DNA of 64,000 nucleotides from Bacteroidota bacterium. Lineage in GTDB: Bacteria; Bacteroidota; Bacteroidia; NS11-12g; UBA955. Below the pieces are notes generated by a model. It did not search any database. It was given only the letters and a program-made list of their open reading frames with translations, and was not told the DNA's origin. Of the stretch, positions 36,989-56,770 are shown piece by piece (position 1 is the stretch's first letter; each line of letters opens with the position of its first letter). The stretch spans positions 558,001-622,000 of the forward strand of contig JAIYAW010000009.1 in the NCBI GenBank assembly GCA_027488835.1. The letters are read 5' to 3'. The position numbers and the translations under genes were made by a program.

Positions 36989-37287
36989 CTAATAACTTAA
37001 AAACCAGTTCACTGAATGAAATGAAAGACAAATTCATTGGCTCCGTTGGAACAACTGAACGCGATGCTTTTGAACATGAATTACGCATGGATGTTTTGGG
37101 GAAAATGATCAAAAAAGTGCGGATTGAACGACAACTAACCCAAGAAGAACTTGGAAAACTCATTGGTGTTCAAAAAGCCCAAATTTCTAAAATTGAAAAT
37201 AGTACAAATAGTGCGACAATCGATACAATTGTAAAAGTAATGGATGCACTAAAAGCTGAAATTAGCTTTATTGTGAAATTAACCTAA
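36985..37287 (+). CDS. HigA-type XRE antitoxin
   Basis: A 100-residue DNA-binding antitoxin. The C-terminal two thirds are an XRE helix-turn-helix: LGKMIKKVRIERQLTQEELG, QKAQISKIENS and TIVKVMDALKAEISF. The N-terminal 40 residues would wrap the toxin. It overlaps the toxin by 4 bp and the convergent gene at 37284 by 4 bp. It should repress its own promoter through the 18-bp palindrome at 36589. Confidence 0.88.
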   Translation: MTNNLKTSSLNEMKDKFIGSVGTTERDAFEHELRMDVLGKMIKKVRIERQLTQEELGKLIGVQKAQISKIENSTNSATIDTIVKVMDALKAEISFIVKLT

Positions 37288-38504
37288 CCAACGGCAACCG
37301 TGATTTTTTTGGCTTCGCCACGAACGCCCAATATTTGATATGGCATGCAATAGTTTTCGCCAAGTAGGTTCTTGAATGCTTTGTTGATGGTTGAAATCTT
37401 TTCATTAATGCTGTTATCCAATGGATTGCACAACAACTTCACCCGAGAAATAATGGTTTCAGAATCGGTATGCGTGGCAATATTGCGGTAAATGTTATGC
37501 AATTCTTCGTGGTAATTGCCCATGTTTCTCAATTCTATTCCCTCAGGGTGATTCAAAAACAACCGGTAAACCGACCTACAAATGGGGGTCATTTGAACCT
37601 TCTTATCTCCGAGGAATAATTGTCCCTCAAAATTAAAACGGATCGATTCAATGGGATCACCTATTCTCCTGAATTGGCCATAGGTTATTTGCAACCCAGT
37701 TTGTTCATTGGTAAGCTGCAATTCCTTGGCATAATTCTTCAAAATAATCCCTATCAAATCGTTCAAGCCCCGCTCCAACTTCAACAACTTCACTGTATCT
37801 AACAACCGTTGGATTTCTGGGGTAATGATTGCATCATCAATCAGAACATCGTGGTTCTCAATAATATCCTCGTCTATTTCATGCTTTTCTTGAGGGATGC
37901 TCCACTTTTCTAATCCATATAAATCTAAATTGTCATCTTTAACCGATTTTTGGCTTTTGTTAATGTATTTAACAGACTCAATTCGTTCATTTAAAAATGA
38001 AATAGGGTCCTCACTGCTTTCAATTTCATGAGATACGCGGTTTATCCCTCGAAAATCATCTGTAGGTGGAATTGAATATGAAACCGTCTTTTCATCGAAA
38101 AGATATTTTGAAATTCCATCTTCAGGGGGCACATCACCGGGTAATTTTTCAATGCGAGAGCTCTTCTCGTTGAGGTAGCACAAATAAGCTCCCTCATCCA
38201 ATTTAAAGCCAAACATATCTTGGATACGCGCATACACCGATTGCTCACCAGACGTTGACGAAATGATGTACAACACCTGAATTTGTTGTTCGGCCGACAA
38301 CAATCGGTACCCTGGATAATAAATTTCCAAATATTGCTGCAACTGATCGCCGAATGCCGCACTGTGTTTTTCGCGCAATGCAGGCAAAAACACAAATTGG
38401 GAATTCTTTCTTTGAAACCCTGCTTGAATTTCATTCAAATTCTCTTGAATGTATTGTCGGTAAGGCGTTTCGCCAATTTGCATGTAAAGGACTAAGTCAG
38501 ACAT
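37284..38504 (-). CDS. Hypothetical protein, 406 residues, possible winged-helix C-terminus
   Basis: Not recognised. It starts MSDLVLYMQIGETPYRQYIQ and has a mixed alpha/beta N-terminal 120 residues, a polar acidic linker (about 170-220: SQKSVKDDNLDLYGLEKW and following), a helical middle, and a C-terminal part (about 310-406) where FNFEGQLFLGDKKVQMTPIC and RLFLNHPEGIELRNM resemble a winged-helix regulator fold. Divergent from the VWA gene and convergent with HigA. It contains four TGAGGGA words. Confidence 0.72.
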   Translation of the reverse strand: MSDLVLYMQIGETPYRQYIQENLNEIQAGFQRKNSQFVFLPALREKHSAAFGDQLQQYLEIYYPGYRLLSAEQQIQVLYIISSTSGEQSVYARIQDMFGFKLDEGAYLCYLNEKSSRIEKLPGDVPPEDGISKYLFDEKTVSYSIPPTDDFRGINRVSHEIESSEDPISFLNERIESVKYINKSQKSVKDDNLDLYGLEKWSIPQEKHEIDEDIIENHDVLIDDAIITPEIQRLLDTVKLLKLERGLNDLIGIILKNYAKELQLTNEQTGLQITYGQFRRIGDPIESIRFNFEGQLFLGDKKVQMTPICRSVYRLFLNHPEGIELRNMGNYHEELHNIYRNIATHTDSETIISRVKLLCNPLDNSINEKISTINKAFKNLLGENYCMPYQILGVRGEAKKITVAVG

Positions 38505-38627: not shown

Positions 38628-39290
38628 ATGACACAGCAAAACACAAGTCCCTCAAAAGAAAAAGCCGTATCGGTAACCCTCATGATTATCGACGAAAGTG
38701 GCAGCATGGCCTCATTAAAGAAAGCAACCGAAGAAAGCCATTTGGGCATTTTACAAAGCATTCAGCAGGAACGCGAAAGCATGCCAAACCTCATTCAGTA
38801 TGTAAATACGTGGACATTTTGTCAAAATTCAGTGAGGGAAAAACAATTGCTCACAAAAATTGAAAACGGTGAAGAATTGCAGTCGCTGGCATTGAAACCA
38901 AACGGCTCTACCCCATTGTTTGATGCCATTGGCACCGCTTGCACGAAATTAGAAAACCAATTGACTCATTTGAAGTTATTGAATAGCAACACCATGGTTA
39001 CCGTTGCCTTATTTACCGATGGTTATGAAAATTCGAGCAGAGAGTTTTCATTGAAGGAAACTAAACGTTTGATAGAACGATTGAAAGGCCAAGGTTGGTC
39101 GTTCAACTATTATGGGTCAGACCAATCGGTTGAAGAAATGAGTGAAAAATTGAGTTTTGATCACTCCATGAAGGTGGAATATTCTTCTGAGGGATTTAGG
39201 GAAGGAATGCGCTCGTATTCAATAAAGAGCAGCCATGACAAGGTGGAATATTTGAAAAAAATGGGCCTCAATCACGACGATATTTTATAA
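38628..39290 (+). CDS. von Willebrand factor type A domain protein
   Basis: A 220-residue VWA protein. The MIDAS motif is complete: Asp22-Glu-Ser24-Gly-Ser26 in LMIIDESGSM, the TPLFDA threonine, and the late aspartate in VTVALFTDGYENSS. It is short, with no membrane anchor or signal, so cytoplasmic. It starts divergently 124 bp from the unknown gene and is followed after 8 bp by a DUF6717 gene on the same message. VWA proteins of this kind often work with an AAA ATPase in protein remodelling; the DUF4143 ATPase at 39650 is not of that MoxR type. Confidence 0.88.
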   Translation: MTQQNTSPSKEKAVSVTLMIIDESGSMASLKKATEESHLGILQSIQQERESMPNLIQYVNTWTFCQNSVREKQLLTKIENGEELQSLALKPNGSTPLFDAIGTACTKLENQLTHLKLLNSNTMVTVALFTDGYENSSREFSLKETKRLIERLKGQGWSFNYYGSDQSVEEMSEKLSFDHSMKVEYSSEGFREGMRSYSIKSSHDKVEYLKKMGLNHDDIL

Positions 39291-41108: not shown

Positions 41109-41828
41109 TCAAAACGTATAGCCAACCGATAAGCTCACGGCTGTAAAGCTACCGAGCCAGCCATTGGAGTTGACAATTGGTTTGTTTAGTGGCAACGCAT
41201 AGCGAAAAACAAGATGAAACTGCTTGAATTTTGCACCCAATGACATTTCCATGGCTTGGTAAAATGGAGTACGCAGATTTAATTTTCCGTTTTTCACAAT
41301 ATCTGGGGTAAATGGCATTTTGTCTGTATTTTCTCCCCTACTGCAATAGCCAAACCGGTATTTTGCTCCCGCAATCACATATTTGCTGTCGACCTCGAAT
41401 CCCAGTCCCACAGTGGTAAAACTCAATTTCCGAAACCAACTTTCATTGATTTGAACACCCGAATCATTGAATTGGTACAAGGCAAAATTCATCAAAGAAT
41501 AGGATGCATCAGCCACAAACGACACTGGTATGTACTTTACATTGTAAATGATTTCGGCGGAAACCATCCCTCCGTATGAATTTCTAAAAAGGCCGCCATT
41601 GTTGTCACCAAAAAAATCATACCTATACCCATTGCAATAGATTGGACGCACATCGGGTTCAATAATTGCAGCTCCTGCCGACACCCTGTATTTGATAGCG
41701 GTTACAGAATCGGCATTTTGATAGGTACTTTTTACGGTTGCTGAATCTACAGGCGATTGTGCCATGAGCGTTTGCGCAAGCAGTGCCATTGACAGTAAAA
41801 TCCATTTAAAATGATGTTGTTTTTCCAT
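41109..41828 (-). CDS. Outer-membrane beta-barrel-like protein, hypothetical
   Basis: A 239-residue exported protein. Signal peptide core ILLSMALLAQTLMAQ. The rest alternates aromatic and polar residues as in small beta-barrels: FFGDNNGGLFRNSYGGMVSA, YVIAGAKYRFGYCS, FHLVFRYALPLNK and the final FTAVSLSVGYTF, whose terminal Phe fits outer-membrane insertion. No family recognised. It contains no T9SS domain. Confidence 0.75.
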   Translation of the reverse strand: MEKQHHFKWILLSMALLAQTLMAQSPVDSATVKSTYQNADSVTAIKYRVSAGAAIIEPDVRPIYCNGYRYDFFGDNNGGLFRNSYGGMVSAEIIYNVKYIPVSFVADASYSLMNFALYQFNDSGVQINESWFRKLSFTTVGLGFEVDSKYVIAGAKYRFGYCSRGENTDKMPFTPDIVKNGKLNLRTPFYQAMEMSLGAKFKQFHLVFRYALPLNKPIVNSNGWLGSFTAVSLSVGYTF

Positions 41829-49077: not shown

Positions 49078-49135
49078 TGAAAGTATAACAAATAGGTGGT
49101 AGATTGGTTTGTGTGGGAAAAGGATTATTCGTTTT

Positions 49136-49227
49136 TTTCGCGAAAAACGCAAAACTTCGCGCCTCGATTTTTGATTGAAATATAACTGAACAATTCAGCG
49201 GGAATTAACTTTGTAAAAGTGAGAAAA
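49136..49227. repeat. 92-bp direct repeat, left copy flanking the Abi locus
   Basis: Identical to 50375-50466 except one base (GTAAAAG here, GTATAAG there). It begins TTTCGCGAAAAACGC and ends GTGAGAAAA. It contains the -7-like word TAACTTTG at 49206-49213. The two copies are 1239 bp apart and enclose exactly one gene and its predicted RNA. Confidence 0.95.
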
Positions 49228-49253
49228 ATAGAAATTAAATAATTTTGAAATCA

Positions 49254-49284
49254 TTGATAGAAATCAAGAAAAGTATTAAATTTG
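49254..49284 (+). promoter_or_regulatory. Promoter of a predicted small RNA upstream of the Abi gene
   Basis: TTG at 49254-49256 and TAAATTTG at 49277-49284, 20 bp apart, match the Bacteroidota consensus. Start site expected near 49290. Confidence 0.65.
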
Positions 49285-49289
49285 TAGTA

Positions 49290-49340
49290 ACAGTACCCTT
49301 GTTGCTTCCCGTTAGATCAGCTCAAGGGTCTTTCTTTTTT
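49290..49340 (+). ncRNA. Predicted short RNA with terminator hairpin upstream of the Abi gene
   Basis: From the expected start near 49290 a transcript would fold ACCCTTG (49295-49301) with CAAGGGT (49323-49329) around a 21-nt loop and end in CTTTCTTTTTT (49330-49340). The hairpin with T-run stops transcription 88 bp before the Abi start, so this is not the Abi leader. AbiF-like HEPN proteins are reported to be paired with a small antitoxin RNA; this fits that arrangement. The RNA is predicted from sequence only. Confidence 0.6.
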
Positions 49341-49428
49341 ATAAGGGTTTACCATAGAATTAAGAGGCCCCTTTTTACTGTCTATTTTATTCACTGAAAA
49401 GTTTTTTTCATTTACAAAACTTTGAAAT

Positions 49429-50322
49429 ATGGCTAAGCTTTCAAAGAGTATTTCTGAACAAATTACTATTCTCCAAGACCGAGATTTGCAATTTCGAAAC
49501 ATCAGTAATGCGTCACATATTTTAAATAATATTAGTTATTACCGACTAAAGGGATATTGGTGGGAATTGCAAGATAATAAAGAAAATCACCATTTTGCTC
49601 CAAATAGCTATTTTGAAGATGTAATTGATTTATATAATTTTGACAGACATTTTAGATTGATACTATTTAATGCAATTGAAAGTATTGAAATATCATTGCG
49701 AACAAAGATGATTTACCACTTATCATTAAGTTATGGTGCACATTGGTATATTATTCCGTCTATTTTTCAAGACCCGAAAAGACATATCGCATCTTTAGAA
49801 AAAATAAAGACAGACATAATTAATAGTAGAGAAGAATTTATTATAAAACATTTTGAAAATCATCCAAACGAAATGCCCGAAAGCTGGAAAGCCTTGGAAA
49901 TACTTACATTTGGTACAATATCAAAATTATATAGTAATTTAAAACATCAATTACCTGAAAAAAACAAAATATCATCAGAATTTGGATTAAATAATCAAAA
50001 GTATCTTGTAAGTTGGTTATTAACAATCACGGTTTTAAGAAATATAATTGCTCATCATGGTAGATTATGGAATAGGGTTATTATTAATAAATATGATTGG
50101 CCAACATCTTCTCGCAAACCTATTTTATCATATTGCCCAAACAACTATCAACGACGGAAAATTTTCCCTATTCTTTCGGCAATTATTTATATGAATAATG
50201 AAATAAATCCCGGACATCACATTAAAAAAGATCTAGTTGAATTATTTGCAAAATTCCCTAATTCCCAATTAAGCAAAATGGGATTTCCCAGAAATTGGCA
50301 ATCAGAACCCATATGGAAATAA
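49429..50322 (+). CDS. Abi-family (Abi_2/AbiF-like) HEPN protein
   Basis: A 297-residue protein of the Abi_2 group. The N-terminal part KLSKSISEQITILQDR, ISYYRLKGYWW and DLYNFDRHFRLIL follows the family, then IEISLRTKMIYHLS (Arg91...His97) and the HEPN core LRNIIAHHGRLWNR with Arg204 and His209, an RxxxxH active site for RNA cleavage. Members cause abortive infection in lactococci; AbiF-type ones are thought related to Cas13 and use an RNA antitoxin. Here an RNA gene is predicted upstream and both are bracketed by 92-bp direct repeats. Base use is more AT-rich than the flanking crtD. Confidence 0.87.
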   Translation: MAKLSKSISEQITILQDRDLQFRNISNASHILNNISYYRLKGYWWELQDNKENHHFAPNSYFEDVIDLYNFDRHFRLILFNAIESIEISLRTKMIYHLSLSYGAHWYIIPSIFQDPKRHIASLEKIKTDIINSREEFIIKHFENHPNEMPESWKALEILTFGTISKLYSNLKHQLPEKNKISSEFGLNNQKYLVSWLLTITVLRNIIAHHGRLWNRVIINKYDWPTSSRKPILSYCPNNYQRRKIFPILSAIIYMNNEINPGHHIKKDLVELFAKFPNSQLSKMGFPRNWQSEPIWK

Positions 50323-50374
50323 CAGTGTTGTTAAAATTTTACAATCTAGTATTAAAGTTGAAAATACCGTTTTA

Positions 50375-50466
50375 TTTCGCGAAAAACGCAAAACTTCGCG
50401 CCTCGATTTTTGATTGAAATATAACTGAACAATTCAGCGGGAATTAACTTTGTATAAGTGAGAAAA
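50375..50466. repeat. 92-bp direct repeat, right copy flanking the Abi locus
   Basis: Second copy of the repeat at 49136-49227, same orientation, one mismatch. It starts 52 bp after the Abi stop. Inside is the same TAACTTTG word. To its right lies another symmetric stretch: GAAAATC (50462-50468) and GATTTTC (50499-50505) around TCGCAAATTGCGA. Confidence 0.95.
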
Positions 50467-50540
50467 TCTCTAAAATGACGTGATCGCAAATTGCGACCGA
50501 TTTTCTTTCAAATGAGGTTTTTTTCTTTGGAAATAATACT

Positions 50541-50571: not shown

Positions 50572-50739
50572 ATGAGCAAAATTGAAATATCAAAAGAATC
50601 TGTTGATGATCACAACAAAATCATTGCATCAAAGCGAGATCAGGAGATCTTCTTTAATGAATTAACAAATCCTTCAAAACCGAATAAAGCATTATCAGAT
50701 GCCGTAAAACGGTATAATAAAATTGTCGATTCTTTGTGA
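50572..50739 (+). CDS. Small TacA/DUF1778 antitoxin-like protein, possibly truncated
   Basis: A 55-residue protein. Its C-terminal part FFNELTNPSKPNKALSDAVK then RYNKIV closely resembles the toxin-wrapping tail of DUF1778 (TacA) antitoxins (F..L..P..PN..L..A...Y). The ribbon-helix-helix region normally about 40-45 residues long is replaced by only about 25 residues (MSKIEISKESVDDHNKIIAS), and no GNAT toxin follows. It has a consensus -7 box. Either a shortened antitoxin remnant or a minimal stand-alone version. Confidence 0.6.
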   Translation: MSKIEISKESVDDHNKIIASKRDQEIFFNELTNPSKPNKALSDAVKRYNKIVDSL

Positions 50740-56089: not shown

Positions 56090-56770
56090 CTACAATTGGT
56101 GATTTACTGAAGACACAAGAACAAACCGAGCAAAGAGTTCTTCGCTGTACCATTTGTATTTTTGGGTAAGCTTGATCACGTTTTTGTGCGTTTCATCAAC
56201 ATAAGCGTAGCGTTTCATGGCATCATAATTCTTCCAAATACTGATTGTTGCTTGCTGAATAAAAGGCAATTCGCCAATGCCAATGGCATATTCCAATTCG
56301 TCGAATTTATATAGTTCGTTGGCTGTTCTTCCCACCTTATTCCAAAATTGCCATAACCTCAGAAACTTGATTCTAGCCCGAGTTAGCACAACAATTTTAC
56401 TTGTATCATCCATGATTGCACCCTGTTGAAATGGGCTCACTCCCGACCATTTGCCATGAGATACAATGTTCTTTAAATATAAAGTTTGTACCGATAAGCA
56501 CTTTTTCTGGTAAGTGTGAAAATAGGCATTCGTTGCATAAAAGTCATCAGCAAACTGTTGATTTTCCCAAACGAGCAACCAAGCGTAGGTGCTGAAACTT
56601 GGCATGAAATCGAAGCCCTTTCCTCCCCCAGAACCCATTGATTTAAAAAAAGTTAAACCTGGCACCTTTTTCAATTTGAAAACAGCCATAGGAACTTGTT
56701 GGAATGCCCAAAAATTAGATGAACGCGACTTCAATTTAAAAATGGTAACGGTTGTAATTTGATCGACCAT
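56090..56770 (-). CDS. crtA: Spheroidene monooxygenase-like carotenoid oxygenase
   Basis: A 226-residue protein resembling CrtA. NFWAFQQVPMAVFKLKKVPG, KSMGSGGGKGFDFMPSFSTY, HGKWSGVSPFQQGA, IVVLTRARIKFLRLWQFWNK, then IGIGELPFIQQATISIWKNY and YSEELFARFVLVSS follow the CrtA family closely. CrtA ketolates acyclic carotenoids at C-2. Only the desaturase crtD is present at 47581. It sits 4 bp before the methyltransferase gene on the same strand. Confidence 0.85.
   Translation of the reverse strand: MVDQITTVTIFKLKSRSSNFWAFQQVPMAVFKLKKVPGLTFFKSMGSGGGKGFDFMPSFSTYAWLLVWENQQFADDFYATNAYFHTYQKKCLSVQTLYLKNIVSHGKWSGVSPFQQGAIMDDTSKIVVLTRARIKFLRLWQFWNKVGRTANELYKFDELEYAIGIGELPFIQQATISIWKNYDAMKRYAYVDETHKNVIKLTQKYKWYSEELFARFVLVSSVNHQL

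Follow-up and report, generated by a model that had tools for sequence, protein, structure and literature searches.

The abiF locus and its product

The window, by which we mean the whole 64,000-nt stretch analysed here, belongs to a 2.49-Mb assembly of nine contigs (G000), and the locus under study lies on its contig C5. All of its features read on the plus strand. Two direct copies of a 96-nt element, W1 (49132-49227) and W2 (50371-50466), enclose a -7 box TAAATTTG (49277-49284), followed by a hairpin with a U-run (49289-49340) and then by the 297-codon gene abiF (49429-50322); a segment between hairpin and gene (49362-49408) is probably a decayed second RNA unit, as discussed below. Behind W2 come 43 nt with a short hairpin (50467-50509) and an orphan 55-aa fragment of a TacA1-like antitoxin (50572-50739; PF08681, E=6e-6). 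The stretch around abiF is rich in defence genes, with RhuM, HTH_26, DUF2442 and the TacA fragment all lying between 42112 and 54198, together with a NUDIX plus PLD-helicase-DUF3427 combination (PADLOC mREase_IV, E=2e-224) and a Fic and HTH pair corresponding to mobile mystery proteins B and A. Near this island, four ORFs (220-406 aa) lack any Pfam match at E<=0.001 (37287-38504, minus strand; 38628-39287, plus; 41112-41828, minus; 56093-56770, minus).

The gene product is an AbiF protein by family, fold and motif. It matches Pfam Abi_2 across the whole profile (E=7.3e-55, 186.6 bits against a cut-off of 25.6), PADLOC AbiD with E=3e-71 and, by sequence, the solved relative PbAbiF (PDB 8vz6) with E=2.9e-45. 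An AlphaFold2 model built from a 36-sequence alignment (pLDDT 95.3) superimposes on 8vz6 with a TM score of 0.91 and a Z score of 29.5 over 292 residues, at 31% identity. The preliminary description of this DNA, made from the sequence alone, had recognised an Abi_2/AbiF-like protein with a HEPN RxxxxH site at Arg204 and His209, and both assignments were borne out: the site (R204-N-I-I-A-H209, codons at 50038-50055) has both residues invariant in 36 homologues, and these align with the catalytic pair R210/H215 of PbAbiF, whose double mutant is reported to be inactive (PMC12373285). A second motif proposed there, Arg91-x5-His97, did not survive as a HEPN motif. Although R91 never varies, homologues have E or T at the position of H97, and the two residues are not spaced as in RxxxxH. 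Kinship with Cas13 by fold was also set aside, the Z score of 5.4 to Cas13d being weak and not interpreted.

A consensus promoter had likewise been claimed, and here only the promoter itself stands, in another form. Matches to a sigma-70-like promoter in the region are no better than those in shuffled sequence (11 against 10.5 expected) and are attributable to chance; the relevant signal is the Bacteroidota -7 box TAnnTTTG, present as TAAATTTG, and the same box precedes the leader RNA in other AbiF loci. Since both this consensus and the promoter spacing are described for F. psychrophilum (PMC9723704), we place the +1 at about 49289, which is where the hairpin begins. W1 holds another possible -7 box, TAACTTTG (49206-49213), to which a promoter role may be assigned from its sequence.

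The leader RNA as a putative antitoxin

The hairpin upstream of abiF, an RNA of about 50 nt with a poly-T end in the preliminary description, holds up well. It spans about 52 nt, folds with a z score of -3.15, and none of 200 shuffled sequences was equally stable. It was also found independently by a covariance model, R2, which we built on 24 other AbiF leaders with the window and its congener G011 left out: R2 detects it at 49285-49337 with 59 bits (E=6.8e-14), and it is the sole credible match in the 64 kb, the next-best having E=0.15. In the 24 leaders, 6 of 12 base pairs have both sides changed, and pairing holds in 91.3% of the cells, against at most 39% when the pairing is slid. In 57 other loci R2 has a further 46 matches; 11 of the 12 pairs covary there, in an alignment that was fitted to R2 and hence leans towards the model. 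We had taken eighty AbiF loci from bacterial genomes, 79 of which, from Bacteroidota, were examined for a leader RNA, and nearly all of these have one of this kind. A simple motif test places it upstream of the gene in 63 of these and downstream in 2; most of the remaining loci have the same or an RF03085-like hairpin, as judged by eye. The fetched loci have nearly the same arrangement, running from TAnnTTTG through four bases to AACAGTACCC..GCATACCRTAAGAWCTGC..GGGTC, a U-run and then the start codon.

The RNA differs from the abiF RNA known to Rfam. A scan of the window with Rfam for this RNA gave chance matches only, and RF03085 has no match at E<=10 either in 49100-50520 or in L053. Since the genes nearest PbAbiF instead carry RF03085 RNAs (54-60 bits), we regard the window RNA as a distinct subtype, represented by R2; as RF03085 does not match it, this is an AbiF-RNA subtype not modelled in Rfam. 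The two types share their position, their link to abiF and a hairpin with a C-rich 5' arm and a G-rich 3' arm, but the window RNA has another loop sequence and lacks the 3' internal bulge. The segment at 49362-49408 aligns with the intact second units of three other leaders (L042, L105 and L050) although its fold is lost, and it is probably a decayed second unit of the RF03085-like type. In the G011 leader (contig G011:C49; L042 3456-3491) an RF03085 unit stands behind a leader of the window type, with 34.7 bits and E=7e-5, which is below the gathering score of 37. Two hairpins are also found in the AbiF leaders of Aequorivita (L105 2335-2450) and of a Cyclobacteriaceae MAG (L140 2348-2483). 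AbiF genes with two leader-RNA units possibly have dual RNA antitoxins.

Every feature of an AbiF type III system that is visible in sequence is present, namely a toxin of the family and a structured, conserved RNA directly upstream. The locus is very probably a type III toxin-antitoxin/abortive-infection module, in which an RNA encoded in cis would act as the antitoxin of AbiF. The AbiFCd protein of Clostridioides difficile prophages is a toxin, and direct binding of its leader RNA, RCd22, neutralises this toxin both in cis and in trans (PMC12373285); PbAbiF with its own RNA (PDB 8vz6) provides a second analogue of the mechanism (PMC12737573). For the window we infer from these analogues the toxicity of AbiF, its inhibition by the RNA, control by read-through and the trigger. 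RNA polymerase would start behind the TAAATTTG box and mostly stop at the U-run after the hairpin, so that the short RNA would be abundant and abiF mRNA would arise from read-through only. The short RNA would then bind the AbiF dimer and block its RxxxxH site; a shortage of the RNA, for example upon phage infection, would leave free AbiF to cut RNA, and growth would stop. The start of abiF lies about 90 nt past the leader RNA, farther than in most relatives, which counts against the antitoxin reading, as does the missing match to RF03085.

The hairpin might instead be an intrinsic terminator or attenuator of the abiF leader with no antitoxin role. It does end in a U-run within the 5' leader, and the C. 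difficile leader RNA also lowers abiF transcription through early termination (PMC12373285). However, conservation of the unpaired loop and of the AACAG beside it equals that of the stem, which a plain terminator would not need, and the leader RNA of a homologue has been shown to bind AbiF and to act in trans (PMC12373285), so we consider this alternative very unlikely.

With the antitoxin reading, the locus is of an already known kind since it would work like the known AbiF-RNA pairs. It resembles PbAbiF (PDB 8vz6; Zilberzwige-Tal et al. 2025) in fold, in the RxxxxH pair and in having one short hairpin RNA immediately ahead of the gene (PMC12737573, PMC12373285), but its RNA is of another subtype than those of the genes nearest to PbAbiF. 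With AbiFCd/RCd22 it shares an Abi_2 HEPN toxin and a leader RNA that lies in cis and has a terminator at its end (PMC12373285). RCd22, however, contains two RF03085 motifs in an RNA of about 100-130 nt, whereas the window has one R2-type unit and the probable decayed second one, and AbiFCd is encoded within a prophage lysis module, whereas the window gene is chromosomal and lies beside other defence genes. What makes this a variant worth reporting is an RNA subtype outside the Rfam model, combined with an element that heads unrelated toxin-antitoxin (TA) cassettes. The leader RNA of Bacteroidota AbiF genes is widespread, covaries and is missed by the current Rfam abiF model; many AbiF systems may therefore lack an annotated antitoxin. 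The RNA subtypes can now be compared along the path that has been proposed to lead from AbiF to Cas13. The locus itself was considered as CRISPR-Cas13 and rejected: no CRISPR family scores above its gathering score in the window, and the repeats around the gene comprise just the 96-nt family, in two copies, and short ones due to chance.

The flanking repeats and the same site in a congener

W1 and W2 are direct repeats, 98% identical over 96 nt and 1,239 bp apart, with a 92-nt core (49136-49227 and 50375-50466) that differs by one mismatch, just as first described; a DNA search of the own genome returns only these two as close copies (E=1e-42 and 4e-41). In G011, abiF (96% identity) and its RNA (100%) occupy the same site, between crtD and dinB, with the upstream repeat only. 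The downstream repeat is missing there, along with the 43 nt behind it, as part of a 140-nt block with AAAT at both edges, as would be expected if the block had been deleted from G011 or inserted in the window. In the segment that starts just past the upstream repeat and ends with abiF, the two genomes are 92-100% identical, as against 83-86% in flanking coding sequence and 59% in the core of the upstream repeat. At fourfold-degenerate sites abiF differs in 8 of 72 (11%) and three flanking genes in 153 of 405 (38%), a contrast that is significant (Fisher p=3e-6) and makes abiF about one third as divergent as its flanks. Because this divergence is so far below that of the flanks, the gene or cassette was probably exchanged after the lineages split, even though it sits at the same site. 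The difference of about 2% between W1 and W2 is likewise far below the divergence of the flanks between the species, which suggests that the repeats were copied or converted recently.

In the preliminary description, the gene and its RNA, enclosed by the repeats, looked like a compact member that moves as a unit. The silent-site divergence supports exchange, indirectly. The repeat pair as the boundary of the unit is not supported, however: G011 has gene and RNA with the upstream repeat only, and the repeat heads unrelated cassettes elsewhere (see below). The same reasons favour taking the second copy either for the header of a following cassette, of which the tacA fragment would be the remnant, or for a recent duplication. 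In keeping with the preliminary description, the ORFs tested in the window within about 10 kb include neither an integrase nor a transposase, nor any other recombinase, and no circular form was found. No empty site was found either; crtD and dinB are side by side only in G011, the contig of another genome (G013) ending inside dinB. A transposon or insertion sequence was rejected, the edge repeats being direct rather than inverted and the ORFs tested within about 10 kb including no transposase.

Both repeats might be a passive by-product, left by a one-off duplication or a single-crossover insertion in one lineage, with the other copies being old relatives of the same intergenic sequence. The absence of the downstream copy from G011 and the AAAT at both edges of the missing block are in its favour, and so are the unrelated direct repeats that flank other AbiF genes, in 4 of 51 cases against 0 of 102 control intervals (p=0.011). 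It does not account for an element that heads unrelated cassettes in several genomes, nor for W1 and W2 being recently alike while W1 is far from its G011 counterpart, and we consider it unlikely. The repeats around other AbiF genes measure 39-330 bp, and in two loci (L122, 2328-2359 and 3609-3640; L129, 2329-2353 and 3860-3884) duplicated terminator-like sequences bound the gene. As these sequences are unrelated to W1 and W2, the repeat pair was dismissed as a general AbiF feature.

The element ahead of other defence cassettes

We then describe the element through a profile, R1, whose strong matches score 61-90 bits (W1, 90 bits). These lie at ten places: three in the own genome, including a third, diverged copy found by the profile, five in G011, and one each in G013 and G030; G012 has a weak match of 30.6 bits. 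Nothing was found in the rest of the 108 genomes of the order, and on plasmids, phages and viral contigs there was nothing beyond a 23-nt match in one phage record. An element dispersed genome-wide was ruled out, because scores in the own genome drop from 61 to 18 bits after the three strong copies, and the short weak matches inspected have little in common beyond the 5' block. Every copy is upstream of, and codirectional with, a TA or defence gene or a remnant of one. The strong copies head AbiF, the TacA antitoxin fragment, AbiEi/ii (twice), HigBA, a NYN protein (PADLOC HEC-09) and a DUF4062 ATPase, and the weak G012 copy heads DUF2442. The link between element and defence draws on the ten strong matches plus the weak one in G012, and some of these are not independent of one another.

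Since this genus-specific element heads unrelated defence and toxin genes in one freshwater bacterial group, it hints that these genes are exchanged as cassettes. A unit of element, HigBA and SOUL is common to G000 and G011 in different surroundings, and its homology begins at the element and ends at the SOUL stop codon. G011:C49 carries what looks like debris of earlier cassettes: behind one element there is an AbiF start (MRKAYNKVPLSFQDQISLLKSRG), and another element is preceded by an NYN leader with 98% identity. We read the copies flanking abiF as headers of neighbouring cassettes, first abiF and then the decayed tacA, whose sequences were recently made alike.

The element might instead be a shared regulatory region for defence and TA operons, made up of a terminator and a TAnnTTTG promoter and possibly an operator, with no mobility and with the copies around abiF arising by local duplication. 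Each copy does stand upstream of its gene and in the same direction, a terminator-like hairpin precedes several of the G011 and G013 copies, an invariant TTA-CTTTG block ends all nine aligned copies, and the element in G011:C44 ends about 75 nt before abiEi. However, other TAnnTTTG boxes are closer to the abiF RNA, and to abiEi in L042, and both the limits of the HigBA-SOUL homology and the step in divergence at the repeat are left unexplained. We regard this reading as possible but doubtful as a full account. Because the TTA-CTTTG block ends every aligned copy, a shared promoter role is a possible rival, and one that is compatible with recombination.

As for the route of exchange, we tentatively favour homologous recombination at or near the elements as the likeliest, with RecA-type recombination as our preferred guess. 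A bolder proposal, which we put forward with considerable doubt, is that the genus might keep a system of defence-gene cassettes (AbiF, AbiE, HigBA, NYN and DUF4062 units), in which the element of about 96 nt would mark the 5' end and serve as a handle for recombination and expression, through which cassettes that encode no integrase themselves would be swapped in and out. Integron gene cassettes and pdif-flanked TA modules are comparable: in these, too, copies of one element stand between unrelated TA or defence cassettes, and the cassettes occur at various places. The present element differs from these in lying at the cassette 5' end, in its length of about 96 nt and in that no integrase turned up nearby; no attC or dif pattern was recognised in it by eye. 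An element that heads unrelated TA cassettes offers a sequence-defined way to test how modules are gained and lost in defence islands that have no integrase or transposase.

Two further observations concern G011:C49. A contig binned to another genus (L099, G030:C138, 4070-6934) is 99% identical to it over 2.9 kb, and this contig could be either a recent transfer or misbinned. The element-headed AbiE and HigBA cassettes directly adjoin a CRISPR array at L042 47-2594, which has over 30 repeats (Rfam RF01363, CRISPR-DR50).
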